Source: Roseibium sediminis (GTDB lineage Bacteria; Pseudomonadota; Alphaproteobacteria; Rhizobiales; Stappiaceae). Taken from it: DNA of 64,000 nucleotides. Within the stretch, counting starts at the first letter, position 1; each line of letters starts with the position of its first letter. Shown piece after piece: positions 42,776 to 59,514 of the stretch. The stretch spans positions 1-64,000 of the forward strand of contig NZ_VXDB01000019.1 in the NCBI RefSeq assembly GCF_008711325.1, read 5' to 3'. The notes below the pieces were generated by a model, which was given only the letters and a program-made list of their open reading frames with translations, ran no database searches and had not been told where the DNA came from. The position numbers and the translations under genes are program-made.

Positions 42776-42989
42776 TCAATGCTGGCGCAAATCGGCGCTA
42801 TCGATCCTTTTTGTTTGGTGCAATCATTTTTGACAAGGGGAAGGTATGGGCACTTCTGTACTTTCCTAGATCAGCGGGCGCTACATGAGAATCGATTGAG
42901 CGCCCAAAGCTGATCGCTCCAGCAGTGAACGAGCATCTTTGGGCGTTTCCAGCAAAACGCCCGATGCTTCAAGGGAGAGGAAGTTACCC

Positions 42990-43340
42990 ATGGGGCGTTT
43001 GACCACCCACGTTCTGGATACGGCACTTGGCCGTCCGGCTCAGGGACTGAAGATCGAACTTTGGTCGGTTGAGGGAACCGGAGAACGGGTTTCAACCCAT
43101 GTGACCAATGATGACGGGCGTGTAGACGCGCCGATCCTTGAAGGATCAGCTCTCAAGCGCGGCGTTTATGAGCTTCGGTTCCATGCTGGTGACTATCTGA
43201 AGGCCAGCGGGCAGGCACTTCCCGATCCATTATTTCTGGACATTGTGCCGATCCGCTTTGGCATAGCAGACGAAGGCGCCCATTATCATGTTCCATTGCT
43301 TTTATCCGCCTTTGGCTATTCGACCTATCGGGGGAGTTGA
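42990..43340 (+). CDS. uraH: 5-hydroxyisourate hydrolase
   Basis: The 116-residue protein is the transthyretin-like enzyme that hydrolyses 5-hydroxyisourate, the product of urate oxidation. Signatures are the start [20 protein letters not shown], the central [32 protein letters not shown], and the C-terminal YRGS that closes the active site. ATG 42990 has GAGAGGAAG upstream; the frame's extension to 42939 is not needed. It is the first gene of the purine operon and lies three bases before xdhA. Confidence 0.95.
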
Positions 43341-43343
43341 TTG

Positions 43344-44825
43344 ATGCGTGAAACCATCCGGTTTCTCCAGAACGGACAGGTAGTCGAGCTGACAGACGTC
43401 AAGCCGACAGAAACGGTGCTGGATTATCTGCGCCTCAGAAAACGCAAGACCGGCACCAAGGAAGGTTGCGGCGAGGGAGATTGTGGTGCCTGCACCGTTG
43501 CTCTTGGCCGCCTGTCCGGTGACCGGGTGGTCTACCAGCCCGTTAACAGCTGCATTTTGTTGCTTGGCATGATTGATGGCGCTGAGCTGGTAACGGTCGA
43601 AGACCTTGCCGAGGATAATCGCCTTCATCCGGTCCAACAGGCTCTGGTTGATTTGCATGGCTCGCAATGCGGGTTCTGCACTCCCGGCTTTGTCATGTCC
43701 ATGTTCACGCTTTACCATTCCAATGGAGCGGAAAAGAGCCGCAAGGCTGTCACCGACTGGCTTGCCGGAAACTTGTGTCGCTGCACGGGGTATCGTCCGA
43801 TTATCGAGGCCGCACTGACCAGCTGTTTTGAAACGGCAGATGACTGCTTTTCCCGCCGCAGTTCGCAGACGGCCGAGTTGCTGCAGTCGCTCGATGATGA
43901 CCGGGACGTTTATCTTCCCTATGGGGATGGTTTTTTTGCGTCGCCAGCTTCAATCGAAGGACTTGCGGCCATCTATGCGCAGCATCCCGACGCGACTTTG
44001 GTCGGCGGTGCGACCGATGTTGGCCTTTGGATTACCAAACACCTGCGCTCTCTTCCCAAAGTCATCTGGCTTGGCCGGGTCGAGGCGCTTGACCGGGTAG
44101 AAGAAACTGCATCCGGCCTTTTGATTGGTGCGACAGCGACCTATCAGGCAAGCCATGATGCTGTGACTTCCTTGTCACCGGATTTGGGCGAACTCTGGCG
44201 GCGCATCGGATCCAAACAGGTCCGTGCTTCGGGCACCATTGGCGGCAATATCGCTAACGGGTCTCCAATTGGCGATACTCCGCCGGCCCTGATAGCCCTT
44301 GGCGCGACTTTGGAACTGCAAAACGGTGGCACGTCGCGGACCTTGCCGCTTGAAGATTTCTTCATGGAATATGGTCGGCAGGACAGGCAGGTTGGTGAAT
44401 TCGTAACCGGCGTGTTCGTTCCCAGACCAACCATCAATCAGGTTTTCCGCTGCTACAAGATTTCCAAGCGCTTCGATCAGGACATCTCGTCGGTCATGGG
44501 TGCATTCCGCTTCACCTTGTCAGATGGCGTGATTACGGAAGCGCGGATCGCCTTTGGCGGCATGGCCGGCACGCCGAAACGGGCAATGGAAACCGAGAGG
44601 GCCCTGATTGGCGCGCGGGTTGAGGATGCATCCTCGTGGGCGTCTGCCTTGCAGGTCCTTCAATCGGACTACACTCCCATGACGGATATGCGAGCCTCCA
44701 ATGAATACCGGCAGGAAACGGCCCGGGCACTTCTGGTGAAGGCGCTGATGGAGGCTGACGGCACTGATCCGGCTGGGCTCAATGTTCTCAAGCGGCGGGA
44801 GGCTGAAAATGACCGCGCCGCATAA
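43344..44825 (+). CDS. xdhA: Xanthine dehydrogenase small subunit XdhA
   Basis: The 493-residue subunit carries the electron-transfer centres. A plant-type [2Fe-2S] domain has Cys42, Cys47 and Cys50 in GCGEGDCGACTV. A second [2Fe-2S] domain has CGFCTPGF and LCRCTGYRPI. The FAD domain begins near residue 195, with LVGGATDVGLW and GGNIANGSPIGDTPPALIAL. Electrons pass from the molybdenum site of XdhB to NAD here. ATG 43344 has GGGGGAG upstream. It overlaps xdhB by 17 bases. Confidence 0.95.
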   Translation: MRETIRFLQNGQVVELTDVKPTETVLDYLRLRKRKTGTKEGCGEGDCGACTVALGRLSGDRVVYQPVNSCILLLGMIDGAELVTVEDLAEDNRLHPVQQALVDLHGSQCGFCTPGFVMSMFTLYHSNGAEKSRKAVTDWLAGNLCRCTGYRPIIEAALTSCFETADDCFSRRSSQTAELLQSLDDDRDVYLPYGDGFFASPASIEGLAAIYAQHPDATLVGGATDVGLWITKHLRSLPKVIWLGRVEALDRVEETASGLLIGATATYQASHDAVTSLSPDLGELWRRIGSKQVRASGTIGGNIANGSPIGDTPPALIALGATLELQNGGTSRTLPLEDFFMEYGRQDRQVGEFVTGVFVPRPTINQVFRCYKISKRFDQDISSVMGAFRFTLSDGVITEARIAFGGMAGTPKRAMETERALIGARVEDASSWASALQVLQSDYTPMTDMRASNEYRQETARALLVKALMEADGTDPAGLNVLKRREAENDRAA

Positions 44826-47169
44826 CATGACCGCTTCGGATGAAAACCTAGCCCATGTGCGCAAATCGCTGAAACACGATAGCGCTGACAAGCATGTTGC
44901 GGGAACAGCGACCTATATCGATGATATTCCCGAGCCGGAAGGAACGCTTCATGTTGTTCCGGTTTGGTCGAAAAAGGCGATACGCGCCAATATCTTGTCG
45001 GTAAATGTTGAGAAGGCGATTCAGGTTCCGGGCGTGGTCGCCATCCTGACGAAGGACGACATTCCCGGTATCAACGATTGCTCTGCTGCTATGGGAGATG
45101 ATCCTGTGTTGGCGGAGGGCGAGATCCAGTTCTTTGGTCAGGCCGTTTGTGCCATCGTCGCCGAGACGCGGGACATCGCACGGCGCGCCGCGCTTCTGGT
45201 CGACATCGCGTTCGAACCAATGACGCCGATCTTGACCCAGGAAGATGCCGTAGCTGCAGACACGACCGTGTTGCCGGACTATCAGTTCCGTCGCGGGTCT
45301 CCGGAAACCGGTTTGACCGGAGCCGAGCACAATCTCTCCGGAGTGATGCGGATTGGCGGTCAGGAGCACTTCTACCTGGAGGGCCAGATTGCCATGGCCA
45401 TTCCTCAGGAAGATGGCGGTATGTTCGTCCATACTTCCACCCAGCATCCGACCGAAGTTCAGCATACGGTGGCCAAGGTTCTTGGCGTTCCCGACGCGGC
45501 CGTCACTGCCGAAGTGCGCCGTATGGGCGGCGGGTTTGGGGGCAAGGAATCCCAGGCAAATCAGTGGGCTGCGCTGGCATCGCTCGCCGCGGCGAAAACT
45601 GGCCGGGCCTGCAAGATGCGCCTTGATCGTGATGACGATATGATCATGACCGGCAAGCGGCACGATTTCCGGGTTGAATGGCAGGTCGGGCATGACCGTG
45701 AAGGGCGCATTCGCGCTGTTGACCTCAATTTCCTGTCTCGATGCGGATATTCTGCGGACCTGTCTCTCGGAGTGAATGATCGGACGCTGTTTCACGCAGA
45801 TTCCAGCTATTTCTATCCCGACGCCTCAATTCGCAGCCGCCGTCTGAAAACGGACACCTGTTCGAACACGGCGTTCCGGGGTTTTGGCGGTCCGCAAGGC
45901 ATGCTCGCAGCTGAACGGTTGATCGATGCCATTGCGATCACGCTTGGCAAGGACCCGCTGGATGTTCGCAAGCTCAATTTCTATGATGGCGAGCGCAACG
46001 TCACGCCTTACGGCATGCCGGTGGAAGAGCATGAGGTCATGCATGACCTCATCGACAAGCTTGAGGCAAGTTCCGATTACCGGGCGCGCCGCGAGGCCGT
46101 GAAAGCGTTCAACGCCAATAGTCCGGTTCTGAAGAAAGGGCTGGCGCTTACACCGGTCAAATTCGGTATTTCATTCACGCTGAAGCATCTCAATCAGGCG
46201 GGCGCGCTCGTTCATCTCTACACGGATGGGTCGATTCACCTGAACCACGGCGGCACCGAGATGGGGCAGGGCCTTTACCAGAAGGTTGCCCAGGTCGTTG
46301 CAGATGAGTTCGGTGTCACGTTGGACAAGGTGCGGATCACCGCGACCAACACGTCCAAGGTGCCGAACACCGGTCCGACAGCTGCGTCCTCCGGAACCGA
46401 TCTCAATGCCATGGCGGCAAAAAAGGCCGCAGAAGTGATCAAGGGGCGTCTGGTCGAGTTCCTGTGCGCTGAGCACAAAGTCACGCCAGATCTGGTGCGT
46501 TTTGAAAACAACAAGGTGATTGTGGGCGAAAAGTCCTTCCGCCTGGCGGAAGTGGCAAAGGCTGCTCATATGGCGCGCATCCAGATGTCCCATGCGGGGT
46601 TCTATGCGACGCCGGGGATCACCTGGGATCGTGAGACGATTACCGGGCGCCCATTCTATTACTTTGCGTTTGGCGGAGCCTGCGCCGAGGTCACCATCGA
46701 CACGATGACCGGCGAAATGACGGTGGATCGTGTCGACATCCTGCATGACGTCGGACATTCGCTGAACCCGGCCATCGACATTGGGCAGATTGAAGGCGGC
46801 TTTGTGCAGGGTATGGGCTGGCTGACCACCGAGGAACTGTGGTGGGACGAGCAGGGGCGTTTGCGCACCCACGCGCCGTCTACCTACAAGATCCCGACGG
46901 CATCGGACATACCTGCAGACTTCAATGTCAATCTCTATCAGGGACGCGGAAATCCGCAGGAGACGATCTATCGGTCCAAGGCAGTCGGGGAACCGCCGGT
47001 CATGCTGGCCAACGCGGTCTTCTGCGCCATCAACGATGCTGTCGCCAGCCTCAAACCCGGTGTTGTGCCGGACCTCAATGCACCTGCCACTCCGGAAGCC
47101 ATCATGAAGGCCGTTCGCTACATGAGGACTGCCAAGGTATCTGCTCATGCCGAAGGTGGAGCCGAGTGA
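44809..47169 (+). CDS. xdhB: Xanthine dehydrogenase molybdenum-binding subunit XdhB
   Basis: The 786-residue subunit hydroxylates hypoxanthine and xanthine to urate at the molybdopterin site. GGGFGGKESQ, FRGFGGPQGML, HGGTEMGQGLYQK and the catalytic Glu in KAVGEPPVMLANA are present. It has the bacterial two-subunit size and arrangement with XdhA. ATG 44809 is set by GGGAGG seven bases upstream, inside the end of xdhA. Its stop overlaps the xdhC start. Confidence 0.95.
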   Translation: MTAPHNMTASDENLAHVRKSLKHDSADKHVAGTATYIDDIPEPEGTLHVVPVWSKKAIRANILSVNVEKAIQVPGVVAILTKDDIPGINDCSAAMGDDPVLAEGEIQFFGQAVCAIVAETRDIARRAALLVDIAFEPMTPILTQEDAVAADTTVLPDYQFRRGSPETGLTGAEHNLSGVMRIGGQEHFYLEGQIAMAIPQEDGGMFVHTSTQHPTEVQHTVAKVLGVPDAAVTAEVRRMGGGFGGKESQANQWAALASLAAAKTGRACKMRLDRDDDMIMTGKRHDFRVEWQVGHDREGRIRAVDLNFLSRCGYSADLSLGVNDRTLFHADSSYFYPDASIRSRRLKTDTCSNTAFRGFGGPQGMLAAERLIDAIAITLGKDPLDVRKLNFYDGERNVTPYGMPVEEHEVMHDLIDKLEASSDYRARREAVKAFNANSPVLKKGLALTPVKFGISFTLKHLNQAGALVHLYTDGSIHLNHGGTEMGQGLYQKVAQVVADEFGVTLDKVRITATNTSKVPNTGPTAASSGTDLNAMAAKKAAEVIKGRLVEFLCAEHKVTPDLVRFENNKVIVGEKSFRLAEVAKAAHMARIQMSHAGFYATPGITWDRETITGRPFYYFAFGGACAEVTIDTMTGEMTVDRVDILHDVGHSLNPAIDIGQIEGGFVQGMGWLTTEELWWDEQGRLRTHAPSTYKIPTASDIPADFNVNLYQGRGNPQETIYRSKAVGEPPVMLANAVFCAINDAVASLKPGVVPDLNAPATPEAIMKAVRYMRTAKVSAHAEGGAE

Positions 47170-48161
47170 TGATCGTTTGGGGACACATTGCCAGACTTCT
47201 TGAGCAGCAACCGGCGTGTGTCCTCGTAACCGTTGCCTCTGTCGCGGGGTCTACGCCGCGCGAAGTCGGGGCCCGCATGATTGTGCGGGAAGACGGTGGC
47301 TATCACGGCACGATCGGCGGCGGAACACTGGAGTTCGAAGCAATCCGCATCGCACGGGAAGCCTTGCGGCAGCAGGAAACGGGACTGCGGATCAGACGTA
47401 TGTCCCTTGGACCGGATCTTGGCCAATGTTGTGGCGGCTCCGTGGAGATGGCCTTCGAAGTTGTGAAGGCTTCTCAGCTGGAAGCTGCACGCCAATTTGC
47501 AGAGCTTGAATATCTGGGCGGCGAGTTCTCGACCGTCGCCAAGGTGGCAGATGGACCACTTATCCGAGGCCTTGTAGCTGAAACGGGAACGAAATCCCGG
47601 TTTACGCTCAAGGACGGTGATCTGACTGAAACCTTTGGGCAAAAACGTCAGTCGGTGTTTCTGTTTGGTGCAGGGCATGTCGGCAAGGCTGTGGTCCTCG
47701 CGCTCGCTCCCTTGCCGTTTCGGGTGACCTGGATCGATTCCCGGATAGAGATCTTTCCGGCTGCTGTGCCTGCAAATGTACAAATGGTCCATCAGTCTCG
47801 TCCGGAATGCGCGCTGGAGAGCGCTCCGGATGGTGCTTTCGTACTGGCCATGACCCATTGCCACGCCATGGATGAGGAGATCATGGCGGCGGCGTTGATG
47901 CAGCAGCGCTTCGCGTTATGCGGGGTCATTGGCAGCAAGACAAAACGTGCGCGGTTCAGAAAACGTCTGAAACAGCGCGGACTTTCCGACAGTCTTCTGT
48001 CCGAAATGGTCTGCCCGATCGGGGTGCCAACGATCAGATCCAAGCATCCGGCGGCGATAGCAGCAGGCATTGCGGTCGATTTGTTGCAACGGGAGGAAAC
48101 CGCTCATCAACAGGCGGACCAACCAGAGGGACTTGAAAACATAAGAACTTTCAGCCGATAA
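47169..48161 (+). CDS. xdhC: Xanthine dehydrogenase accessory factor XdhC
   Basis: The 330-residue protein belongs to the XdhC/CoxI family, which binds the molybdenum cofactor, has it sulfurated and inserts it into XdhB. VTVASVAGSTPREVGARMIV and GTIGGGTLE mark the N-terminal domain; VFLFGAGHVGKAVVLAL is the Rossmann-like C-terminal domain; LCGVIGSKTKRARF is also conserved. ATG 47169 shares one base with the xdhB stop. A longer frame back to 46839 lies within xdhB and is rejected. Confidence 0.93.
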   Translation: MIVWGHIARLLEQQPACVLVTVASVAGSTPREVGARMIVREDGGYHGTIGGGTLEFEAIRIAREALRQQETGLRIRRMSLGPDLGQCCGGSVEMAFEVVKASQLEAARQFAELEYLGGEFSTVAKVADGPLIRGLVAETGTKSRFTLKDGDLTETFGQKRQSVFLFGAGHVGKAVVLALAPLPFRVTWIDSRIEIFPAAVPANVQMVHQSRPECALESAPDGAFVLAMTHCHAMDEEIMAAALMQQRFALCGVIGSKTKRARFRKRLKQRGLSDSLLSEMVCPIGVPTIRSKHPAAIAAGIAVDLLQREETAHQQADQPEGLENIRTFSR

Positions 48162-48187
48162 CTCGGCAAACAATTGGGGGTGACCAG

Positions 48188-49771
48188 GTGACAGACATGT
48201 CAATGGCGGGGGAGGAGAACCGCGCCGAGGTCCGGAAGCGTTCTGAAACGGGAACGTTGCTCGATGCGCGCGGGTTGACCAAGCGCTTCGGGGACATTCT
48301 GGCGAATGACCTTGTAGATCTTGCGATCAACAAGGGGGAAATACATGCCTTGCTCGGTGAAAACGGGGCGGGCAAATCGACCTTGGTCAAAATGTTTTAC
48401 GGATCCCTTGAGCCTGATGCCGGTGCAATCAACTGGCAAGGGGAAAGGGTCACGATCACCAGTCCCGCCGTCGCACGATCGCTCGGCATTGGCATGGTGT
48501 TTCAGCACTTCTCGTTGTTTGAAGCCCTCACCGTGGTCGAGAATATTGCGTTGGCGCTCGAAGGCGCTGGCGACATGAAGGCACTGGCGCAACGTATCGA
48601 GGATGTCTCTACGGAATATGGCCTGCCTCTCGACCCGAACGCGGTTGTTGCCGACTTGCCCGTGGGCATTCGTCAACGTATTGAAATCGTACGGTGTCTT
48701 CTTCAAGAACCGCGCCTCATCATCATGGATGAACCGACATCGGTTCTGACACCGCAAGAAGCCGACAAGCTCTTTCTGACCTTGCAGCGGCTTGCGAGCG
48801 AGGGCTGTGCGGTCCTCTACATTTCTCACCGTTTGGAAGAAGTTCAACGGATTTGCCATCACGCGACAATCCTGCGCCATGGCAAGGTCGTTCGCGAATG
48901 CGATCCGTCCAAGGAAACACCGGCATCGCTTGCGCGCATGATGGTTGGTACCGAGGTCATGGGCGTTTCGCTAGGGGCGCATCAGGCCTCCGGTGGTGCC
49001 GTTCGCCTTGGAATTTCCAACCTCAGTGCAAAACCCGGTACTCCTTTTGCGACCGAGCTTCGCAGCATTAACCTCGGCGTTCGCGCTGGTGAAGTGATTG
49101 CGATTGCAGGTGTTGCTGGCAATGGACAGGGCGAATTGTTTGATGCCATATCCGGCGAAATGCCGGTGGGCCGCGACATGATCCGACTTGATGACGAAGC
49201 TTGTGGCCATCGTGGAGTTAATTGGCGGCGGCGCAAGAACGCTGCTTTTGTGCCCGAGGAGCGTCTGGGGCATGGTGCCGTACCCGGCATGAAACTTTCG
49301 GAGAACATTGTCCTGACCCGCCACGGGACTGGTGACGGACTTGCCAGCGGAGGCTTCGTCTCCACGGCCAAGGCCGGCGAAATGGAACAGCGGATCAAGG
49401 CCAAATACGACGTGCGTATGAGCCATGATGATCCGGAAGCGCGCTCCCTTTCCGGCGGCAACCTGCAGAAGTTTGTGGTCGGCCGAGAGCTCGATCGAAA
49501 GCCGGGTGTTCTGGTTGTAAACCAGCCGACATGGGGCGTGGACGCTGGTGCGGCTGCACTGATCCGTCAGGCGTTGATCGATCTCGCCCGGTCCGGTTCA
49601 GCCGTCCTTGTCATCAGTCAGGATCTGGATGAGATCTTTGAGATTGCCGACCGGATTGCCGTGATATCGCGCGGCTATCTTTCGGAACCGGAAGACGCCA
49701 GAAAAATGACCCGCGAACGCATCGGCCTTTTGATGGCCGGTGGGGCGGAAACGACAGCGGGGGCAGCGTGA
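48188..49771 (+). CDS. ABC transporter ATP-binding protein (two-domain, nucleoside/purine BMP type)
   Basis: The 527-residue protein contains two fused ABC ATPase domains. The first has Walker A LLGENGAGKSTLVKM (about residue 57) and Walker B LIIMDEPTSVLTPQEA. The second has the atypical loop IAGVAGNGQGELFDAI and SLSGGNLQKFVVGREL as its signature; the weaker second site is normal for RbsA/NupA-type proteins. With the two permeases and the BMP-type binding protein downstream it forms a complete nucleoside or purine importer. The start is GTG 48188, or ATG 48197, 26 bases after xdhC. Confidence 0.93.
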   Translation: MTDMSMAGEENRAEVRKRSETGTLLDARGLTKRFGDILANDLVDLAINKGEIHALLGENGAGKSTLVKMFYGSLEPDAGAINWQGERVTITSPAVARSLGIGMVFQHFSLFEALTVVENIALALEGAGDMKALAQRIEDVSTEYGLPLDPNAVVADLPVGIRQRIEIVRCLLQEPRLIIMDEPTSVLTPQEADKLFLTLQRLASEGCAVLYISHRLEEVQRICHHATILRHGKVVRECDPSKETPASLARMMVGTEVMGVSLGAHQASGGAVRLGISNLSAKPGTPFATELRSINLGVRAGEVIAIAGVAGNGQGELFDAISGEMPVGRDMIRLDDEACGHRGVNWRRRKNAAFVPEERLGHGAVPGMKLSENIVLTRHGTGDGLASGGFVSTAKAGEMEQRIKAKYDVRMSHDDPEARSLSGGNLQKFVVGRELDRKPGVLVVNQPTWGVDAGAAALIRQALIDLARSGSAVLVISQDLDEIFEIADRIAVISRGYLSEPEDARKMTRERIGLLMAGGAETTAGAA

Positions 49772-50865
49772 TGCGTATCGAACTCGTCAAACGCAAGGAA
49801 CACAGTTCGCTGATGACCTTGCTCTCGCCGCTGGTGGCTGTTGGGCTCACGCTTGTCGCTGCCGCAATACTCTTCACCATCAGCGGCAAGGATCCGTTGC
49901 TCGGTCTCTACAAGTTCTTCATCGAGCCGCTGACAGATACGTGGTCCCTGCAGGAAATCATCGTCAAGGCGACACCCCTTGTGCTGATCGCCTGTGGTCT
50001 TTCGGTCTGCTACCTGTCCAACAACTGGAACATTGGAGCGGAAGGCCAATTCGTCTTCGGAGCGCTTTGCGGTTCCTTCCTTCCGGTGATCTTTCCGGAG
50101 TTTGCCAATGGCGCAACCCTGCCGATGATGTTGCTCTTCGGAGCGGCGGGCGGTGCGGCGTGGGCGATGATCCCGGCACTCTTGAAGACGCGATTCAACA
50201 CCAACGAGATCCTGACAAGCCTGATGCTTGTGTATGTGGCCGGGTTGCTACTTGATTATCTGGTGCGTGGTCCGTGGCGTGATCCGGGTGGCTACAACTT
50301 CCCGGAATCGCGGATCTTCTCCGATGCGGCAACGCTTCCGGTAATCGGTGACGGACGTATGAGCATCTCCGCTCCGATCGCCGTTATCGTGGTGATCGTG
50401 TTGGCGGTGGTCCTTGCCAAGACCTTGAAGGGTTTCGAAATCCGCGTCATGGGTGAAAGCCCGCGTGCGGGTAGTTTCGCCGGGTTTTCTGCCAAGCGAC
50501 TGACCATTTTCGCCTTTGCGCTTTCCGGCGCGCTGGCCGGGGTTGCCGGAACAATGGAAGTCTCCGGGTCGCTGAACCAGCTGTTGCCGTCGATCTCGCC
50601 GGGGTATGGCTTCACAGCGATCATCGTTGCCTTCCTCGGACGGTTGAATCCGGTCGGTATCCTGATTGCCGGGTTTGTTCTGGCGCTGTCCTATATCGGC
50701 GGCGAAGCCGTGCAGGCGTCGATGGGCGTGTCCGACAAAATCGCGAGCGTCATTCAGGGGCTGCTGCTGTTCTTCGTGCTCGCCTGTGACACGTTCATTC
50801 TTTACAAGCTTCGCTTCGTCAAGAAGCGCAAGGCTGTTGCAATCGGGGAGGCGTCCCATGTTTGA
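49771..50865 (+). CDS. ABC transporter permease (BMP/nucleoside type, first)
   Basis: The 364-residue membrane protein has about ten helices and belongs to the BPD_transp_2 permeases. VLIACGLSVCYLSNNWNIGAEGQF is the hallmark N-terminal stretch of the NupB/YufP group, and IRVMGESPRAGSFAGF is the coupling loop facing the ATPase. ATG 49771 overlaps the ATPase stop (TGATG). It overlaps the next permease by eight bases, so the set is translationally coupled. Confidence 0.92.
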   Translation: MRIELVKRKEHSSLMTLLSPLVAVGLTLVAAAILFTISGKDPLLGLYKFFIEPLTDTWSLQEIIVKATPLVLIACGLSVCYLSNNWNIGAEGQFVFGALCGSFLPVIFPEFANGATLPMMLLFGAAGGAAWAMIPALLKTRFNTNEILTSLMLVYVAGLLLDYLVRGPWRDPGGYNFPESRIFSDAATLPVIGDGRMSISAPIAVIVVIVLAVVLAKTLKGFEIRVMGESPRAGSFAGFSAKRLTIFAFALSGALAGVAGTMEVSGSLNQLLPSISPGYGFTAIIVAFLGRLNPVGILIAGFVLALSYIGGEAVQASMGVSDKIASVIQGLLLFFVLACDTFILYKLRFVKKRKAVAIGEASHV

Positions 50866-51772
50866 AGCTGTTCTTCTGACGGTCATCACCGCTGCCACGC
50901 CGCTCCTGATCGCTGCGATCGGCGAGCTGGTGGTTGAACGCTCCGGCGTACTCAATCTCGGTGTTGAGGGCATGATGATCATGGGGGCTGTCGTCGGCTT
51001 TGCCGTCGCCAACCAGACTGGATCTGGAACCCTTGGCGTCGTTGCTGCAATCATAGCCGGAATGGCGATGTCAGCCCTGTTCGGGTTTCTGGTTCTGGTG
51101 CTTGTCACCAATCAGGTGGCCAGCGGCCTGTCCTTGACGATCCTTGGTCTTGGCCTTTCGGGCATGATCGGTGAGGCCTTCATCGGTGTTCCGGGGCTGA
51201 GATTGCCGGAACTCTATATTCCGGTCCTCTCGGAAATTCCGTTCATCGGGCCAGTGTTTTTCCAGCAGGATGCGGTGGTGTATCTTGGCTTCGCGCTGGT
51301 GTTTGCCGTCAGCTACGTGTTGTTCAAGACAAGGGCAGGGCTGGTGCTACGCGCTGTCGGAGACAACCACACCTCCGCCCATGCGCTCGGCTACTCGGTT
51401 GTGCGAGTTCGCTTCCTTGCCATCCTGTTTGGCGGAGCCTGCGCAGGGTTGGCCGGAGCGTATATGTCTCTGGCTTATACGCCGCAGTGGGTTGAAAACA
51501 TGACGGCAGGACGAGGCTGGATCGCGTTGGCGCTGGTGGTGTTTGCGTCCTGGTTGCCGTTCCGCGTTGTGGCTGGTGCCTATCTGTTCGGCGCCGTGAC
51601 CGTGCTTACCTTCCATGCGCAGGCACAGGGGCTTGGAATACCGTCCCAGTTCCTCTCAAGCTTGCCATATCTTGCAACTATCGCTGTCTTGGTGTTGATT
51701 TCAGCTAACCGCAGGCTGACTCTCGTCAATACGCCGGCTTGTCTCGGCAAGCCTTTCGTTCCGGATCGTTAA
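50858..51772 (+). CDS. ABC transporter permease (BMP/nucleoside type, second)
   Basis: The 304-residue protein has about eight helices. TAATPLLIAAIGELVVERSG, VLNLGVEGMMIMGA and LRAVGDNHTSAHALG are typical of NupC/YufQ-type permeases, which pair with the first permease. ATG 50858 has CGGGGAG upstream and lies inside the end of the first permease gene. The 59 bases to the binding-protein gene may hold a processing or attenuation site, but no clear hairpin is seen. Confidence 0.92.
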   Translation: MFEAVLLTVITAATPLLIAAIGELVVERSGVLNLGVEGMMIMGAVVGFAVANQTGSGTLGVVAAIIAGMAMSALFGFLVLVLVTNQVASGLSLTILGLGLSGMIGEAFIGVPGLRLPELYIPVLSEIPFIGPVFFQQDAVVYLGFALVFAVSYVLFKTRAGLVLRAVGDNHTSAHALGYSVVRVRFLAILFGGACAGLAGAYMSLAYTPQWVENMTAGRGWIALALVVFASWLPFRVVAGAYLFGAVTVLTFHAQAQGLGIPSQFLSSLPYLATIAVLVLISANRRLTLVNTPACLGKPFVPDR

Positions 51773-51831
51773 CTTCAACCTCGGTCGGCTTTTGGCCGGT
51801 GTAGTGAAAGTACTAAAAGGGGAATGACGTC

Positions 51832-52896
51832 ATGAAATCTATCCTGAAATCCGCTGTTGCAGCGCTCGCGCTTGCTGCCGCAGGTTCAGCGGCACAGGCC
51901 GCAGACCTCAAGGCCTGTTTCGTCTATGTTGGCCCGGTGGGCGACTTCGGCTGGTCCTACCAGCATGATCAGGGCCGTCTGGCAGTCGAAAAGCACTTCG
52001 GTGATCGTGTCGAGACAGCCTATCTGGAAAGCGTGCCGGAAGGCCCGGATGCGGAACGTGCGATCGAGCGTTTTGCCCGTGAAGGCTGTGGCCTCATCTT
52101 CACGACGTCCTTCGGCTACATGAACCCGACCATCAAGGTCGCCAAGAAGTTCCCGGATGTGAAGTTTGAGCATGCAACCGGTTACAAGACCGCCGACAAC
52201 GTTGCGACCTATAACTCCAAGTTCCATGAAGGCCGCTACATCATCGGTCAGATCGCCGGCAAGCAGTCCAAGTCAGGTGTGGCTGGTTACATCGCGTCTT
52301 TCCCGATCCCGGAAGTCGTGTCCGGCATCAACGCTTTCATGCTCGGAGCGCAGTCCGTCAATCCTGACTTCAAATTGAAAGTGGTGTGGGTCAACTCCTG
52401 GTTCGACCCGGGCAAGGAAGCTGATGCTGCCAAGGCTCTTATCGATCAGGGCGCGGACATCATTACCCAGCACACGGACTCCACGGCGCCGCTTCAGGTG
52501 GCTCAGGAGCGCGGCGTGCATGGCTTTGGTCAGGCCTCCGACATGATCAACTTCGCCAAGGATGCCCAGCTGACCGCAATCATTGACGATTGGGCACCGT
52601 ACTACATCGAACGCGTTCAGGCGGTTCTTGATGGCAAGTGGCATTCGGAAAGCACGTGGCAGGGTATCTCCCACGGCCACGTCGTCATGGCTCCGTACAC
52701 CAACCTGCCGGATGACGTTGTCGCCATGGCAAAGGAAACCGAAGCCAAGATTTCCGGCGGCTGGGAGCCTTTCACCGGGCCGATCACCAAGCAGGACGGA
52801 ACCGAGGCTGCGGCTGATGGCGTCCGTCTGGAAGACGGCGCAATTCTTGGCATGAACTGGTACGTCAAGGGCGTTGACGACAAGCTGCCGCAGTAA
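51832..52896 (+). CDS. BMP family (PnrA-like) periplasmic nucleoside/purine-binding protein
   Basis: The 354-residue protein has a signal peptide (about 23 residues, cleavage at AQA/AD) and the basic membrane protein domain. VGPVGDFGWSYQHDQGR, FTTSFGYMNPTIKVA and IITQHTDSTAPLQVAQE line the ligand pocket of PnrA-type proteins. Unlike many members there is no lipobox cysteine, so it is a free periplasmic protein. Next to xanthine dehydrogenase, the likely cargo is a purine base or nucleoside. It is the last gene before a strong terminator. Confidence 0.93.
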   Translation: MKSILKSAVAALALAAAGSAAQAADLKACFVYVGPVGDFGWSYQHDQGRLAVEKHFGDRVETAYLESVPEGPDAERAIERFAREGCGLIFTTSFGYMNPTIKVAKKFPDVKFEHATGYKTADNVATYNSKFHEGRYIIGQIAGKQSKSGVAGYIASFPIPEVVSGINAFMLGAQSVNPDFKLKVVWVNSWFDPGKEADAAKALIDQGADIITQHTDSTAPLQVAQERGVHGFGQASDMINFAKDAQLTAIIDDWAPYYIERVQAVLDGKWHSESTWQGISHGHVVMAPYTNLPDDVVAMAKETEAKISGGWEPFTGPITKQDGTEAAADGVRLEDGAILGMNWYVKGVDDKLPQ

Positions 52897-52924: not shown

Positions 52925-52965
52925 GGCTCCGAACCCAAGCGGTTCGGAGCCATTTTTATTTTGTT
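52925..52965 (+). terminator. Strong terminator at the end of the purine operon
   Basis: GGCTCCGAACC (52925-52935) pairs perfectly with GGTTCGGAGCC (52941-52951) around CAAGC, followed by ATTTTTATTTT. It closes the uraH-xdh-ABC unit. Confidence 0.93.
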
Positions 52966-53133: not shown

Positions 53134-53619
53134 ATGGGTGGACTGGCAAAAACTGTCTTCGCCTTGTTTGTTTGCCTTCTCATGGCAGGGGGTGGGGCAT
53201 TTGCGCAGGGAAGCACCATTCTTTCTGTCTTTCGTGACTGTGACGGCCCCCAACCTCACGAGTTCAACAGAAGCGGACTGTCCTCCCTGGACCAGGTAAC
53301 AATCGAAACCTCAACGCCCTGGATCAGTGGCCGAACCCGGTTCGAAGGGCCGCTTCTTTTGGATGTTCTGGATCTAACAGGTGGTTGCGGCGAGGAGCTG
53401 GAAGTCATCGCGTTAAACGGATTTCGGGCGCGGATACCTGTTTCCGACATCCATAACTACAAACCCATTCTTGCTCTCAAGGAAAACGGCCGGTTCATGA
53501 AGGTCAGAAACCGTGGCCCGCTGTTCATCGTCTTTCCCTTTGATGATTACCCGTCGATCAATAACGAGATTTATTTCTCCCGCTCTGTATGGCAGGTGAG
53601 GGAAATTCACGTGCACTAG
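53134..53619 (+). CDS. Small periplasmic protein with sulfite-oxidase-like (molybdopterin-binding-type) fold
   Basis: The 161-residue protein has a signal peptide (about 24 residues, ending GGGAFA/QG) and a short Oxidored_molyb-like domain. LSSLDQVTIETSTPWISG, FEGPLLLDVLDL, VIALNGFRARIPVSDI and PLFIVFPFDDYP match small homologues seen next to GGDEF/EAL genes. Where true sulfite oxidases have the molybdenum-ligating Cys (CxGN type), this protein has STPW, so cofactor binding is unlikely and a ligand-binding or sensor role is more plausible. ATG 53134 with GAGGAGA upstream is preferred over upstream starts. The next gene, a membrane GGDEF/EAL protein, begins within 19 bases. Confidence 0.75.
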   Translation: MGGLAKTVFALFVCLLMAGGGAFAQGSTILSVFRDCDGPQPHEFNRSGLSSLDQVTIETSTPWISGRTRFEGPLLLDVLDLTGGCGEELEVIALNGFRARIPVSDIHNYKPILALKENGRFMKVRNRGPLFIVFPFDDYPSINNEIYFSRSVWQVREIHVH

Positions 53620-53637
53620 GTGCAACTGGATACCGTG

Positions 53638-55590
53638 ATGAAAAAACGTCCATTTTGGCAGCTGTCTGCCATCGTCGCCCTGATGTTTGTCGGATTTTTA
53701 TACGGCATACACGTGATGATCGAAGAAGCTTCCGGCGACGCGATGGAGCGGTCGTTGCGCCACGAGGCTGCATGGTCTTCTTCAAATGGACGCGCCGAAA
53801 TCTACAGTTTTTATGTTTCTCTGAACCAATACGCCGAAACTCCGGACCAGGATCATCAAAACAAGGTCGAGATTGCCTACGAAATATTTCTGGGCCGCAT
53901 CTATATGTGGGACATGGCCTGGTTCCGCCAGTATCTGGACAAGGACCCGAAGCTGGTGCGCGTCTTCAACCGGCTGAAGGTCAATGCGGAGAGCCTGGAG
54001 CAGCTGGTCATGGAGCTGAAGGATGAGACTTCGGCCCGAATCCTTCTTGCGAAAGTGGACACCCTTCTTGCTGATGTGGACCGGATCGCCATCGAGATCT
54101 ACCAGCACAATATCAGCGAAAGCGCCCTTATTCGCTCCGATATCCAGAATACCCAGCTGCAGGAAAAGATTTTCATCGTCGTCCTTGTCATGGTGTCGGC
54201 CGGACTTCTGTTCGGGGCATTGTTGCAGAACCGTTCGCTGCTGCAGGCAAACCGCGAAATCGAAGCGAAGGCCGGCGAATTGGCGCGGCTTGCGAACCAC
54301 GACAGCCTGACCGGGTTACCCAATCGGGCCAGCTTCGACGATCATCTCAAGCTCGTCACGAGACGGTTGAGCGACCGCGAGAGCGTTGCTGTCATGGCGC
54401 TTGATCTGGACGGTTTCAAATCCATCAATGATGCATTGGGCCATGCTGGTGGAGATGCGTTGCTTTTGTCCGTAGCGGATCGGCTAACCAGGTTCATGGC
54501 CCAATCTGATCAGAGAAATATGGTAGCCCGTGTCGGCGGTGATGAATTTCTCATTCTGGCTATTTCCCGCGGGAGTTCGCTCGAATTCGAAAGGCTGGGG
54601 AGGGCCTTGTTGCTCGAGTTCGAACGTCCCTTCGAAACTGACTACGGAAGCCTTACCGTCGGTGTTTCCATCGGAATTGCCCCCGTGGCAGGGCGGGAAA
54701 TCGGGCTGCAGAAAGCCGTTACCAATTCCGACCTGGCCCTGATAGCGGCCAAAAGGGAAGGCAAGGGGACGGTCGTCAGTTTCGAACGGGGAATGCGCGA
54801 GAACCTTGAAGCCCGGCTGCGGATTGAAAACGAACTGAAACGCGCCCGCGGGACCGGACAGATCAAGCCGTTCTATCAACCACAGTTTGACCTTGAAACC
54901 GGGGAGATCGTCGGATACGAAGCGCTCGCTCGCTGGGAGCATCCGCAGCTTGGATTCATGATCCCCGAGAACTTCATTCCTATCGCGGAATGCAATGGCG
55001 ATATTTCCTGGATCGGGGAGGAAGTTCTCGCCACCGCCTGCCGGGATGTTCAGCGTTTCTCCAGATCAGCCCGCGTTGCCGTGAACCTCTCCGTGGCCCA
55101 GTTGCTCAGTGACAGGTTGGTACGAAAGGTCGAGCAGGTCTTGCGGGAAAGTGGTCTGAATCCGGCTCGGTTGACGCTGGAGGTCACTGAGAGTCTCGTC
55201 ATGAGCGATCCCAACAAGGTCCTGCAGAATCTTGGTGAGCTTCAGCGACTGGGAGTCTCGATCTCCTTGGACGACTTTGGAACGGGCTATTCTGCGCTGT
55301 CACAGCTCAGCCGTTTCCGATGGGATGAATTGAAGATCGACAAGTTTTTCGTCGAGAATTGCGAAGCGGATGATCTCACGCTAGCGATCGTCGATCTGGT
55401 GCAAAGCGTCTCGGGAAAGCTTAACGCACGCCTTGTTGCCGAAGGGCTGGAGACGCACCGTCAGGAGAGCATCTTCTGGAGCAGAGGCTGCCAGATCGGG
55501 CAGGGCTACCTCTTCGGTCGACCGATGTCTGCCGACGCGATTCTGGAGATCTATCATGGTGGGTCTCTCCGCCGCCTTTACGCGGTTTAG
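53638..55590 (+). CDS. Membrane-bound diguanylate cyclase/phosphodiesterase (GGDEF-EAL), both sites intact
   Basis: The 650-residue protein has helices at about residues 9-27 and 177-197 enclosing a ~150-residue helical periplasmic domain, then GGDEF (VARVGGDEFLIL, about residue 300) and EAL (YEALARWEHP, about 428) domains. GGDEF is canonical; the upstream inhibitory RxxD site is absent (DQRN). The EAL side keeps VAVNLSVAQLL, LEVTESLV, SLDDFGTGYS (Asp pair near 545) and QGYLFG. It could both make and degrade c-di-GMP. GTG 53620, touching the previous stop, is an alternative start. The coupled periplasmic protein upstream is a likely sensory partner. Confidence 0.92.
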   Translation: MKKRPFWQLSAIVALMFVGFLYGIHVMIEEASGDAMERSLRHEAAWSSSNGRAEIYSFYVSLNQYAETPDQDHQNKVEIAYEIFLGRIYMWDMAWFRQYLDKDPKLVRVFNRLKVNAESLEQLVMELKDETSARILLAKVDTLLADVDRIAIEIYQHNISESALIRSDIQNTQLQEKIFIVVLVMVSAGLLFGALLQNRSLLQANREIEAKAGELARLANHDSLTGLPNRASFDDHLKLVTRRLSDRESVAVMALDLDGFKSINDALGHAGGDALLLSVADRLTRFMAQSDQRNMVARVGGDEFLILAISRGSSLEFERLGRALLLEFERPFETDYGSLTVGVSIGIAPVAGREIGLQKAVTNSDLALIAAKREGKGTVVSFERGMRENLEARLRIENELKRARGTGQIKPFYQPQFDLETGEIVGYEALARWEHPQLGFMIPENFIPIAECNGDISWIGEEVLATACRDVQRFSRSARVAVNLSVAQLLSDRLVRKVEQVLRESGLNPARLTLEVTESLVMSDPNKVLQNLGELQRLGVSISLDDFGTGYSALSQLSRFRWDELKIDKFFVENCEADDLTLAIVDLVQSVSGKLNARLVAEGLETHRQESIFWSRGCQIGQGYLFGRPMSADAILEIYHGGSLRRLYAV

Positions 55591-55821: not shown

Positions 55822-57732
55822 ATGATGGAACGAACAAGCTCCTGGAACTTGATTGCCAGTTTGGGACTTGTTTTCGTTGTGGTCACGTTCCTTGTCCACT
55901 CGATCCTTGATCGCTCCGAGGAAGATGCGCTTGATAATCTGATTGGCGTTGCCCAGGAGACAGGGGCTCCATTCTTCATTCGACTGACTGATGAAGTTTT
56001 GTCCGGAACAATGAGGGTTCTGGATCCTGCAGACCCCCAGCCGTCAACGGCGAATGACGAGCTGATGGCGACCCTGGAAACATGGAATTTGGGGTCACGG
56101 ATCTTTTCATCCTCCGCAGAGACTGTGTCACCGCTTCTTGAGGATATATCGCCGATCATCGAAAGGGTCGGAACGCGGGAAGGCGAGGTTCTAAAAAATG
56201 AACCTCTCACGAGCCCGGAAGTGCGTTCTCTTCAGTCTGCCTTCAAGGAAATTCGCTCTGAACTGGAGACCAGCGGTGTCCAGCGGCTCGCCGAGGTTAG
56301 ATCCGATTTCGTTTCGCGCGGGCAAGCAAAGAATGCAATTTTCTTCGTCATCCTGACCGTTGCGTCCGGCTTGATCGTGATGACGCTGCTGCAGAACAAT
56401 TGGCTGTTGGCGGCGAATGCGAAAATAACCGAAAACGCTCAAATGTATTCTCGGCTTGCGCGGCGGGATTCTCTTACGGGTTTGGCAAATCGGCTGCATT
56501 TTGAGGAAATTCTGTCGTCTGCGCTGATTGCTTGGGACGAAGACGAGACCCTCGTGGTTCTTGCGCTTGATCTCGACGGGTTCAAGGCAGTGAATGATAC
56601 ACTCGGTCATGATGGCGGAGATGCCCTGCTGAAATCGATTGCCGGGCGCCTGAAGAACATAGTCAGGAACCTGGATAGCCGAAACATCGTCGCTAGAACC
56701 GGTGGCGATGAATTCGTCATTCTGCTTCATCTTCAGACCGGCGTTGCAGACCCGCGCCGCATTGCATCTCGACTGTGTTCAGAATTGCAAAGGCCATTTG
56801 AGACCGAATTCGGTCACATCAAGGCGGGAGGGTCTGTCGGATATACGGTCGTAAGCTCTGAACATCGCGAACCTGCCGTTCTGCTCACCGAGGCGGACCT
56901 TGCTTTGATGGATGCCAAACGCTCCGGTACGGGAGCTGCGCGTGCGTTTCATCCAACCATGATGGAGGGATTAAAGCGGCGGCTAAAAATTGAGTCCGAT
57001 CTCGAAATCGCAATTGAACACAGGCATATCCTGCCATTTTATCAGCCCCAGTTTGACCTCGCCACGGGACGCCTCATTGGCGCTGAAGCTCTGGCTCGAT
57101 GGAACCATCCCGACTTCGGACAGGTGGCGGCTGAGGAGTTTATTCCGGTCGCGGAAGCAAGTGGCGACATCGTCAAGCTTGGGAAGCTTATTCTGGAACA
57201 GGCCTGCGCTGATGCTGCACAGATGCGCCCAGACCTCGTGATGACGGTGAATGTTTCATTTGCCCAGCTCATGGAAAGCGACTTTGTCAGCGTCGTACGT
57301 GATGCTCTTGTCCGGAACGGTTTGCCCGCTTCCCGCCTGACGCTGGAAATTCAGGAACAGTCGTTGCTGAGTGATCCGTTCAATGCGCGCCATGTGCTGT
57401 CATCTCTTCAGGCCCTTGGGGTTCAGATTTCGCTTGGGGATTTTGGAACCGGGGCTGGACGGATAAGAGATATCCTGCAGATCCGTTGGAATGAAATAAA
57501 AGTCGACAAGAGCTTGTCCATGTTCGACGGGACGTCGGGCGCGATTGAGCCAATCGTCAATGTCATTCAACAGATCGGATCAAACTTCAAATCCAATCTC
57601 ATCGTTGAGGGGATCGAGACCGAGAAGCAGAAGAACTGGTTTTCCTCTGCGGGGTTTTCCATCGGGCAGGGGTATTTCTATTCTGAAGCGCTCCCTCGCG
57701 AAGATTTTGAGAACACCTTCCTGGCGTCCTGA
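55822..57732 (+). CDS. Membrane-bound GGDEF-EAL protein, EAL metal site altered
   Basis: The 636-residue protein is a paralogue of the preceding gene: two helices (about 8-26 and 175-195) around a periplasmic domain, then GGDEF at about 294 (VARTGGDEFVIL) and EAL at about 422 (GAEALARWNHP). GGDEF is intact; the RxxD inhibitory site is DSRN. In the EAL domain the usual DDFGTG reads GDFGTG (Gly539), losing one metal-binding Asp, and LEVTE is LEIQE. It probably favours c-di-GMP synthesis or binding over breakdown. ATG 55822 has GGAG about 14 bases upstream; the extension to 55756 is doubtful. Confidence 0.88.
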   Translation: MMERTSSWNLIASLGLVFVVVTFLVHSILDRSEEDALDNLIGVAQETGAPFFIRLTDEVLSGTMRVLDPADPQPSTANDELMATLETWNLGSRIFSSSAETVSPLLEDISPIIERVGTREGEVLKNEPLTSPEVRSLQSAFKEIRSELETSGVQRLAEVRSDFVSRGQAKNAIFFVILTVASGLIVMTLLQNNWLLAANAKITENAQMYSRLARRDSLTGLANRLHFEEILSSALIAWDEDETLVVLALDLDGFKAVNDTLGHDGGDALLKSIAGRLKNIVRNLDSRNIVARTGGDEFVILLHLQTGVADPRRIASRLCSELQRPFETEFGHIKAGGSVGYTVVSSEHREPAVLLTEADLALMDAKRSGTGAARAFHPTMMEGLKRRLKIESDLEIAIEHRHILPFYQPQFDLATGRLIGAEALARWNHPDFGQVAAEEFIPVAEASGDIVKLGKLILEQACADAAQMRPDLVMTVNVSFAQLMESDFVSVVRDALVRNGLPASRLTLEIQEQSLLSDPFNARHVLSSLQALGVQISLGDFGTGAGRIRDILQIRWNEIKVDKSLSMFDGTSGAIEPIVNVIQQIGSNFKSNLIVEGIETEKQKNWFSSAGFSIGQGYFYSEALPREDFENTFLAS

Positions 57733-57981
57733 GGGGGGTGTTCAGACACCAAAGGGAATTTACTTTCAGTTTTACTAAAGTTTTAACCTAGCAATTTCGC
57801 CCTATTTAAAATCGACCGTCTAGACTTCGCACGAGTGTATGAACTTGGGTGCTGACGACGGAACTGTTCGCCGGTTAGCCCATGAACCGTGCGGAGCACG
57901 CATTTGGTCAGGTATCGGTTCAAAGTTGCTCGAACGAGGTTGTCCGGCGGTTGGGGCGTCTTCGGCAAACGAAGTCCAAAC

Positions 57982-59514
57982 ATGGGTCTGACGACAATTC
58001 TCGCCCTGTCGTTCACTGTGTGCTTTTCCCTTGAAAGCGCCGCGGCTGCGGTTTTGATGCCCGGAGAACTGCATGTCAGTTCATTGGCAATCTATGTTCT
58101 GTGCGGACTGCTTGTCGGCGGCAGTGCGGTTGTCGTTGCACTTGTGTGGCACCTCAGGCGCTGCCATGCGGAAATTTCCGAACAAAGGCGGGAAATTGCT
58201 CTTCTCGGGTCTACCGATCAGTCAACGGGACTGCCCAACGAATATGGCTTGTTGCAATCCCTGGAGGACAATCAAGATTCCGCCAGACGGTCCGGGCGAC
58301 TGGTCGTTCTTGCCATCGACTGCGAAGTGAGAGGCCGTGCTGCCTCCCTGAATTCCATTGCGGCAATTGAAGACAGCCTTGCAGACGCCGTTGCGAGACT
58401 GCGATCCGCTCTGGCGCTTTTTGATCCCGCTGCCCGTATAGCAAGGGGGGATGACGGGTGTTTTCTCGGGGTTCTGGGTCTTGAATCCGGCATTGAGCCG
58501 GGGGATCTGGCAAAAACCATCATTCAGGTTCTGGCACGCAATTCCGAGCAGGCATCCAGCTGGACTGGAATTGAGTGTGTTGTTGGTGTTGCTGTTTCCG
58601 AAACTCAGGATGCGGATATCCCTTCGCTATTGGATGAGGCTCGGTTGGCTTTGCGGGAGGCATCCGGCAGTGCCGTCTCGGGGCCGTCCTGTGTCTACTC
58701 TTCAGGTTTGAAGGCGGTTCTGTTTCGCAGGCATACGGTTGAAGCGGAAATATTCGCCGCGCTCAAGGAGGGGACTATCGAGCCGCATTTCCTGCCTAAA
58801 TTTGATCTTGCATCAGGTGGCATCACGGGCGTGGAGGCGCTTGCCCGCTGGCACAATGAAAAGCTCGGTTGGATTTCCCCACGCGAGTTTTTGTCTGCTG
58901 CGCGCTCCATGGGCGTTATGGTTGAATTGGACAATGCAATTCTTCTGTCGGCCTGTGAAAAGGCCTGCGGGTTGCCCGATCACGTCACGATATCGGTCAA
59001 CATTTCTGCTGCGCGCCTTTTTGCCGATAACTTCGCTGAAGTTGTTCGCAAGTCCCTGCGGGTGACAGGGCTGCGTCCAAGTCGCTTGTTCATCGAAGTG
59101 TCAGAACCAACCTTGTTTGAAAGGCCTGTACAGGTTCTGAAGGTTCTGCGCGATCTGAAAGCGATTGGAGTGCGTGTTGCCCTGGACGAGTTTGGGCGGG
59201 AAGGGCTGGCTGCGCTGCCTTACCTTAGCCAGTTCGACTGGGATGAACTCAAGATCGATCGCAATCTCGCCGATCAGGCCTTGGGCGATTCAATTTCGCA
59301 CGACATGGTCAGCGTCGTTCTGTCCTACATGACGCGCGGTGGGGTGCTGATCACCGGTAAAGGCATCGAAACCGCGGATCAACGTGAATATCTGGAAAGC
59401 CTTGGCTGCATGGCGGCGCAGGGGTATCTGTTCTGCGGCCCCCTACCGGCGAGCGATGTCGAAAAGCTGTTCTTCTCACTCGTCGAACAGCCTTATGCGC
59501 GTTATTCGGCCTGA
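57982..59514 (+). CDS. Degenerate GGDEF-EAL protein (probable c-di-GMP effector or inactive EAL)
   Basis: From ATG 57982 the gene encodes 510 residues; the frame reaches back to 57889, so the start is unsure. A signal-like segment (residues 1-20) and a second helix near 35-55 anchor it. The GGDEF domain is shrunken and its signature reads ARGDDGC (156-160), certainly without cyclase activity. The EAL motif is kept (GVEALARW, Glu285) along with ISVNISAARL. The Asp pair is changed to DEFGREG (Asp402, Glu403) and LEVTE to IEVSE. QGYLFCGPL is conserved. Phosphodiesterase activity is doubtful. It is the third of a tandem set and overlaps the convergent M81 gene by 13 bases. Confidence 0.85.
   Translation: MGLTTILALSFTVCFSLESAAAAVLMPGELHVSSLAIYVLCGLLVGGSAVVVALVWHLRRCHAEISEQRREIALLGSTDQSTGLPNEYGLLQSLEDNQDSARRSGRLVVLAIDCEVRGRAASLNSIAAIEDSLADAVARLRSALALFDPAARIARGDDGCFLGVLGLESGIEPGDLAKTIIQVLARNSEQASSWTGIECVVGVAVSETQDADIPSLLDEARLALREASGSAVSGPSCVYSSGLKAVLFRRHTVEAEIFAALKEGTIEPHFLPKFDLASGGITGVEALARWHNEKLGWISPREFLSAARSMGVMVELDNAILLSACEKACGLPDHVTISVNISAARLFADNFAEVVRKSLRVTGLRPSRLFIEVSEPTLFERPVQVLKVLRDLKAIGVRVALDEFGREGLAALPYLSQFDWDELKIDRNLADQALGDSISHDMVSVVLSYMTRGGVLITGKGIETADQREYLESLGCMAAQGYLFCGPLPASDVEKLFFSLVEQPYARYSA

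Follow-up and report, generated by a model that had tools for sequence, protein, structure and literature searches.

Known PruR systems and the locus under study

The closest described counterpart of the locus studied here is the PruR-DcpA system of Agrobacterium tumefaciens, as presented in the portion of PMC13259868 that was available, where Greenwich 2024 and Feirer 2015 are cited for it. In this system, PruR is a periplasmic protein with a sulfite oxidase fold that lacks the Cys ligand of the molybdenum, its gene is located directly upstream of dcpA, and the protein prefers tetrahydromonapterin, the type of reduced pterin made by PruA, with no evidence for a reaction between pterin and protein. 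Contact between PruR and the periplasmic domain of DcpA biases the latter towards phosphodiesterase activity. The same portion of PMC13259868 describes a conserved W-x7-E motif in the receptors, a PruR pocket that includes Trp160 and Tyr104 (the latter replaced by Phe in some representatives), a variant of the system with a sensor kinase (DTB), the presence of several PruR systems in one genome, the structures of PruR from A. tumefaciens (7KOS) and V. cholerae (7KP2), and the motifs TGX3RXG and YX3K of PruA-type SDRs.

The window, i.e., the whole stretch of 64,000 nucleotides of Roseibium sediminis DNA that was analysed, contains a gene pair (Table 1) that a sequence-only reading had interpreted as a repurposed cofactor fold acting as a ligand or redox sensor for c-di-GMP control. 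The idea of a repurposed fold controlling c-di-GMP is correct, the redox role being no more than possible; its testable features are present and it fits PruR-DcpA, for which it is already published in Agrobacterium according to the accessible text of PMC13259868. We consider it highly probable that the pair is the PruR-DcpA pterin-sensing switch for biofilm formation in a marine, Roseibium-type alphaproteobacterium, operating by the mechanism outlined below.

Table 1. Features of the window and related loci referred to in the text
Feature	Position	Strand	Details
Purine catabolism and uptake genes	42981..52896	+	HIU hydrolase, XdhA, XdhB, XdhC, ABC transporter, PnrA-like Bmp binding protein (Pfam)
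Terminator-like hairpin	52925..52951	+	11 pairs; between purine-transporter gene and pruR
pruR	53134..53619	+	161 aa; ATG 53134, stop TAG 53617-53619
DcpA-type receptor gene (D1)	53638..55590	+	ATG 53638; alternative start GTG 53620
D2 (GGDEF-EAL gene)	55822..57732	+	
D3 (GGDEF-EAL gene)	57979..59514	+	
Second PruR-GGDEF-EAL pair of the same genome (L033)	G000:C40:146055-148709		
PruA candidate (L134)	G000:C84:116291-117010		
PruR followed by an intact cyclase gene	L066:2055-4810		
D3-clade loci besides the window			L192-L196, L198, L206, L207, L213-L215, L217-L219, L226

A predicted pterin-binding protein in place of a molybdoenzyme

The small gene is predicted to encode a PruR-type periplasmic pterin-binding protein. 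In phmmer searches against the PDB, its product matched 7RKB ('Pterin Binding Protein', E 7.8e-32), 7KOS ('Pterin Binding Protein', E 1.9e-31) and 7KP2 ('Putative Pterin Binding Protein', E 4.9e-24) as well as 7KOM ('Oxidored_molyb domain-containing protein'), the four structures spanning E 7.8e-32 to 5.1e-20, while the 'putative sulfite oxidase' entries 5WA0 and 4PW3 appeared at E about 0.3; none of the NCBIfam models matched it at E<=1. Its 161 aa compare with about 170 aa expected of a PruR, and the N-terminal secretion signal is present: the N-terminus is hydrophobic, is the sole segment over the threshold used and ends in ...GGGAFA-QG, with a signal peptide placed by eye at about residues 1-24. 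These features agree with the proposed secretion of the protein.

The loss of the Mo-ligand Cys, also claimed beforehand, is equally apparent, since in the motif IETSTPW the Cys position is taken by Thr59. This register is anchored on the Trp common to IETSTPW and to IHCVTKW of L133, a Cys-containing molybdopterin-domain homologue in the same genome (138 bits to Pfam Oxidored_molyb), and was chosen by eye, as these residues of L133 fell into an insertion of the profile alignment. Might the small protein nonetheless be a true molybdenum- or heme-linked oxidoreductase subunit, with the GGDEF-EAL neighbour being incidental? A weak match to Pfam Oxidored_molyb (16.7 bits, sub-threshold for a cut-off of 24) speaks in favour of this, but Cys occurs in the Thr59 column of 0/81 PruR loci (E<=1e-40), the solved pterin-binding proteins are far closer, and a signalling gene lies downstream in 77 of those 81 loci, so that we give this explanation almost no credence. 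A molybdoenzyme identity was rejected on the missing Cys and the matches to pterin-binding proteins.

The pocket was mapped through the alignment with 7KOS using an inferred offset of 19, by which Trp141 and Tyr85 of the chain correspond to Trp160 and Tyr104 (both residues fit). The window PruR has Trp153 and Phe97 at these positions. The Trp is kept in 79/81 loci at E<=1e-40, in which the Tyr104 position is occupied by Tyr in 78 and by Phe in three; given its Phe, the ligand preference of the window PruR may differ. A pattern scan of the genome contigs with this PruR as the single query gave 118 pattern matches, none of which was confirmed.

The DcpA-type receptor and the proposed mechanism

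By its domain content, the gene after pruR (D1) is a predicted DcpA-type GGDEF-EAL receptor. It starts 0 bases (GTG 53620) or 18 bases (ATG 53638, the start aligned with those of most homologues) after the pruR stop; the sequence-only reading had put it within 19 bases. Its order is TM, helical periplasmic sensor, TM, GGDEF and EAL (the last two from Pfam), and the two TM segments enclose about 150 residues, matching the sensor size given by the sequence-only reading. That reading had also called the enzyme dual-active; the GGDEF motif and every EAL residue inspected are intact, and the term holds as a statement at the level of motifs. The sensor carries W-x7-E as WSSSNGRAE, and its W52 and E60 (numbered from GTG 53620) are invariant across 10 aligned DcpA-type sensors. 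The model of the N-terminal region is all-helical (pLDDT 83.9, pTM 0.59), and the best PDB matches of the sensor model are the periplasmic domains of sensor kinases 4K0D (E 7.9e-04) and 3VA9 (E 7.5e-03), a weak fold match that covers a common helical bundle; the binding-protein-to-sensor pair XylFII-LytSN gave E 0.04.

Regarding the source of the ligand, a PruA candidate (L134) carries TGATSRIG and YTLSK. It scores 103.8 bits against a FolM-type model, under the cut-off of 249 bits, and this model finds matches in 13/14 control genomes, above the cut-off in one. The motif check covered 8/33 and 8/25 short-chain reductase matches, the two sets overlapping, and the pteridine-reductase model TIGR02685 gave 33 matches, none above cut-off and with no discrimination among them. 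Both motifs of L134 fit TGX3RXG and YX3K as defined in the part of PMC13259868 at hand.

Based on the above and on the analogy with Agrobacterium, the system would work as follows. A reduced pterin would be produced by a PruA-type pteridine reductase, whose gene lies away from this locus, reach the periplasm and, if the ligand is that of Agrobacterium, bind PruR in the small remnant of the molybdopterin site. The pterin-loaded PruR would then dock, as its Agrobacterium counterpart does, on the helical periplasmic sensor of D1, in our view probably around the W-x7-E region, and this docking would bias D1 towards c-di-GMP breakdown, assuming the same direction of output. When the reduced pterin is missing, the cyclase side would gain and attachment would be favoured, again by extension from Agrobacterium.

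Partners of PruR across relatives and the class

Searches for PruR-like genes gave matches in 22 of 61 genomes (the own genome and 60 relatives, E<=1e-5) and in 88 of the 385 genomes of a class sample (E<=1e-8), the weak tail of which includes Cys-type enzymes such as L133. From these, 20 of the 24 places in relatives (the own place was already in, and G048, G013 and G036 were omitted) and 80 class-sample places, fewer than all those listed, were taken, giving with the window a set of 101 loci, of which 81 reach E<=1e-40. Partners were called downstream and on the same strand by means of home-made profiles, which are fallible: L047, scored as a kinase, shows just a response-regulator domain in Pfam.

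The 81 loci were scored as 60 with a kinase, 14 with a GGDEF/EAL protein and seven with none. In the window and relatives (n=21) the count was 13 GGDEF/EAL and 8 kinase, and in the class sample (n=60) it was one GGDEF/EAL, 52 kinase and 7 none. In three of the seven loci scored as partnerless, the downstream gene encodes a PAS-class III cyclase, identified by Pfam in L061 and L066 and by similarity in L062. L087 ends 425 bases downstream, and no same-strand partner was seen in L055, L073 and L089. Hence a same-strand downstream signalling gene is present in 77/81 loci, adding three cyclases to the kinase and GGDEF/EAL partners. Of the 74 kinase or GGDEF/EAL partners, 66 have their start between -60 and 150 bases from the PruR gene, 72 have a hydrophobic segment, and 53 show W-x7-E in their first 140 residues versus 9.9 expected in shuffled sequences (43/60 kinases, with 7.1 expected, and 10/14 GGDEF/EAL proteins, with 2.8 expected). 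The 20 weaker loci, short of E<=1e-40, were scored as 8 kinase, one GGDEF and 11 none.

PruR is thus mostly paired with kinases, the c-di-GMP pairing is a minority, and the pairing with GGDEF/EAL is rare beyond the sampled relatives (1/60 class-sample loci). This bears on the sequence-only reading in two ways. Its co-occurrence check succeeds for a downstream signalling gene in general and fails for a GGDEF/EAL neighbour in particular, found in just 14/81 loci, the small gene usually having a sensor kinase instead. A small gene often found without a GGDEF/EAL neighbour had been named as what would refute the proposal, and formally this is what was found; its effect is to widen the module more than to disprove it, given that 77/81 loci keep a same-strand downstream signalling gene and the kinase form is already in PMC13259868, as far as its available text goes.

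Separately, L125, L129 and L131 encode more distant PruR-like secreted proteins for which no signalling neighbour was seen; they adjoin other enzyme-like ORFs, whose labels were guessed.

PruR upstream of nucleotide cyclases

In 3/81 loci (L061, L062 and L066), PruR is followed by a protein with the order sensor-PAS-class III nucleotide cyclase, whose gene is intact in L066, has an apparent frameshift in L061 and contains a run of N in L062. These loci share the motifs F[AS]D[MI][VI]GF, DKY[LI]GDG and V[VL]G[DE]T[IV]NVASR, which we take to be typical of class III cyclases. W-x7-E is present in the L062 and L066 proteins and, for L061, in an open frame upstream of its ORF. The L066 protein was matched in 3/5 genomes of the family of G443 (E<=1e-60); these include the genomes of L061 and L062, and in the remaining one the match is confined to the cyclase end. 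In a phylum-wide search at E<=1e-80, with two candidates per genome scored among the matches listed, the cyclase receptor was found in 0/398, a result of little weight at this depth. A cyclase partner for PruR is not mentioned in the accessible part of PMC13259868, and a literature search on PruR with adenylate cyclase and pterin, in which the original PruR papers were covered in part, gave nothing beyond that source.

Two diverged paralogues downstream

D2 and D3 are, by predicted relationship, diverged DcpA paralogues. D2 has an intact GGDEF motif and a change from DDFG to GDFG in its EAL domain; its sensor lacks W-x7-E, is predicted to be helical with lower confidence (pLDDT 76.7) and, when searched in the 61 genomes, matched the own genome and, weakly, the DcpA region of one relative (E 7e-5). 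D3 has lost GGDEF (GDDGCF), shows the EAL changes DDFG to DEFG and EG to KG, and has no periplasmic sensor domain; the one W-x7-E among its first 230 residues, at 57-65, is located just past the last TM segment. In an EAL tree, D1, D2, D3 and the DcpA genes of relatives form one clade (99/97, 24 rows), also recovered (93/96) in a 40-row tree including the 27 EAL matches of the genome, in which the bootstrap had not settled.

Within it, a D3 clade comprises 16 genes (window, G035 and 14 relatives) with a support of 90/84, not starred. Its genes share the strand of the purine-transport Bmp gene and have their start at most about 6.2 kb downstream of it. Counting the window, 16/37 genus genomes have a D3-type gene in this place; in three of those lacking one (G022, G024 and G001), the contig runs out in about 3 kb or less. 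GGDEF is lost in 16/16 of these genes and DDFG is kept in 10/16, while W-x7-E is absent from the aligned sensor position in all 16 and occurs once in their first 230 residues, in D3 itself. In seven of the 14 relatives that carry a D3-type gene, PruR gave no match (E<=1e-5, window protein as query), and the dependence of D3 on PruR was therefore rejected. In L192 and L206, an ORF of 454-475 aa and another of 137-146 aa, presumably Rrf2-like (a label guessed from the N-terminus), lie between Bmp and the GGDEF-dead genes.

Do the three tandem GGDEF-EAL proteins form one multi-enzyme complex served by PruR? Their tandem order and common EAL clade are what such a complex would predict, but D2 lacks W-x7-E, D3 lacks a periplasmic sensor, the genes are separated by gaps of about 230-250 bases, and the D3-type genes in PruR-match-free genomes point the same way, which makes the complex very unlikely. 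As conserved PruR partners, D2 and D3 were discarded, the D2 sensor being nearly confined to its own genome and D3-type genes occurring where PruR has no match. D2 may be a pterin-independent sister of D1 biased towards cyclase activity; D3, largely non-catalytic, may be a relic or may bind c-di-GMP.

Taken with the cyclase loci, these paralogues suggest a wider proposal that we hold tentatively, at somewhat less than even chances: PruR may serve generally as a periplasmic input module for pterins, with PAS-class III cyclases among its outputs, so that pterins would set cAMP or cGMP in some alphaproteobacteria, and the Roseibium receptors may have split into the PruR-dependent DcpA and a PruR-free, GGDEF-dead clade at the purine-catabolism locus.

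The purine neighbourhood

The genes upstream of pruR raise a further question: might the ligand of PruR be purine-related or an oxidised pterin, linked to the adjoining xdh and purine-uptake genes, rather than tetrahydromonapterin? Besides this adjacency and the Phe of the pocket, PruR-DcpA follows the Bmp gene in five further genus genomes (G006, G011, G012, G020 and G035), in four of which PuuD and OHCU decarboxylase lie in between. Yet four of the 10 DcpA-type loci of the genus are away from a Bmp gene, and seven purine query proteins (E<1e-10) found none of these genes at the 80 class-sample loci within the fetched stretches, which reach at most about 8 kb on each side and less at contig ends. 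Moreover, much of the synteny is explicable by shared descent, and a terminator-like hairpin parts the two units; over the region there are 11 such sites, where shuffles gave 9.5 on average, this one having the longest stem of the 11. A scan for sigma-70-type promoters, with one found against 4.4 in shuffles, was uninformative. The purine genes are thus probably on a transcript separate from pruR, and their position beside PruR-DcpA is provisionally treated as inherited gene order. Because the purine linkage is confined to the genus, the purine-related ligand is kept just as a rival, and an unlikely one, to a reduced pterin. No literature linking c-di-GMP with xanthine dehydrogenase, purine and pterin was found.

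Significance and comparison with known systems

The locus extends the PruR-DcpA record to Roseibium and illustrates how raw sequence can reveal a cofactor-binding fold that accompanies a c-di-GMP enzyme as its signal-binding partner. Testable cases of one sensor rewired to different second messengers, and of the fate of a receptor whose periplasmic partner is absent, are offered by the tandem paralogues together with the PruR-cyclase loci. Most worth the attention of specialists are the clade of paralogues and the coupling of PruR to cyclases.

With MsrP/YedY and other molybdoenzymes of the sulfite oxidase fold, the window PruR shares a weak fold-family similarity (PDB E about 0.3; Pfam sub-threshold), but it lacks the Cys ligand and has about 160 aa. 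LapD-type proteins are degenerate GGDEF-EAL receptors. D3 resembles them in the degeneration of both its domains and differs in having no LapD-like sensor and in scoring 45.8 bits against a LapD model with a cut-off of 1020. The PruR-DTB systems, as described in the available part of PMC13259868, also place a membrane receptor, related in its periplasmic domain, after PruR, although their output is a histidine kinase, and they are commoner than GGDEF/EAL pairs in the present sample (60/81). Closest of all is PruR-DcpA of Agrobacterium: as far as the consulted text of PMC13259868 allows the comparison, the window has the same gene order, PruR family, missing Mo-ligand Cys, W-x7-E sensor and GGDEF-EAL output, together with a candidate PruA in the genome, and it differs in the Phe that replaces the pocket Tyr104, in the two extra diverged paralogues and the adjoining purine-catabolism genes, and in the second PruR-GGDEF-EAL pair (L033) of its genome, whose PruR is 36% identical to that of the window and whose receptor has no W-x7-E.
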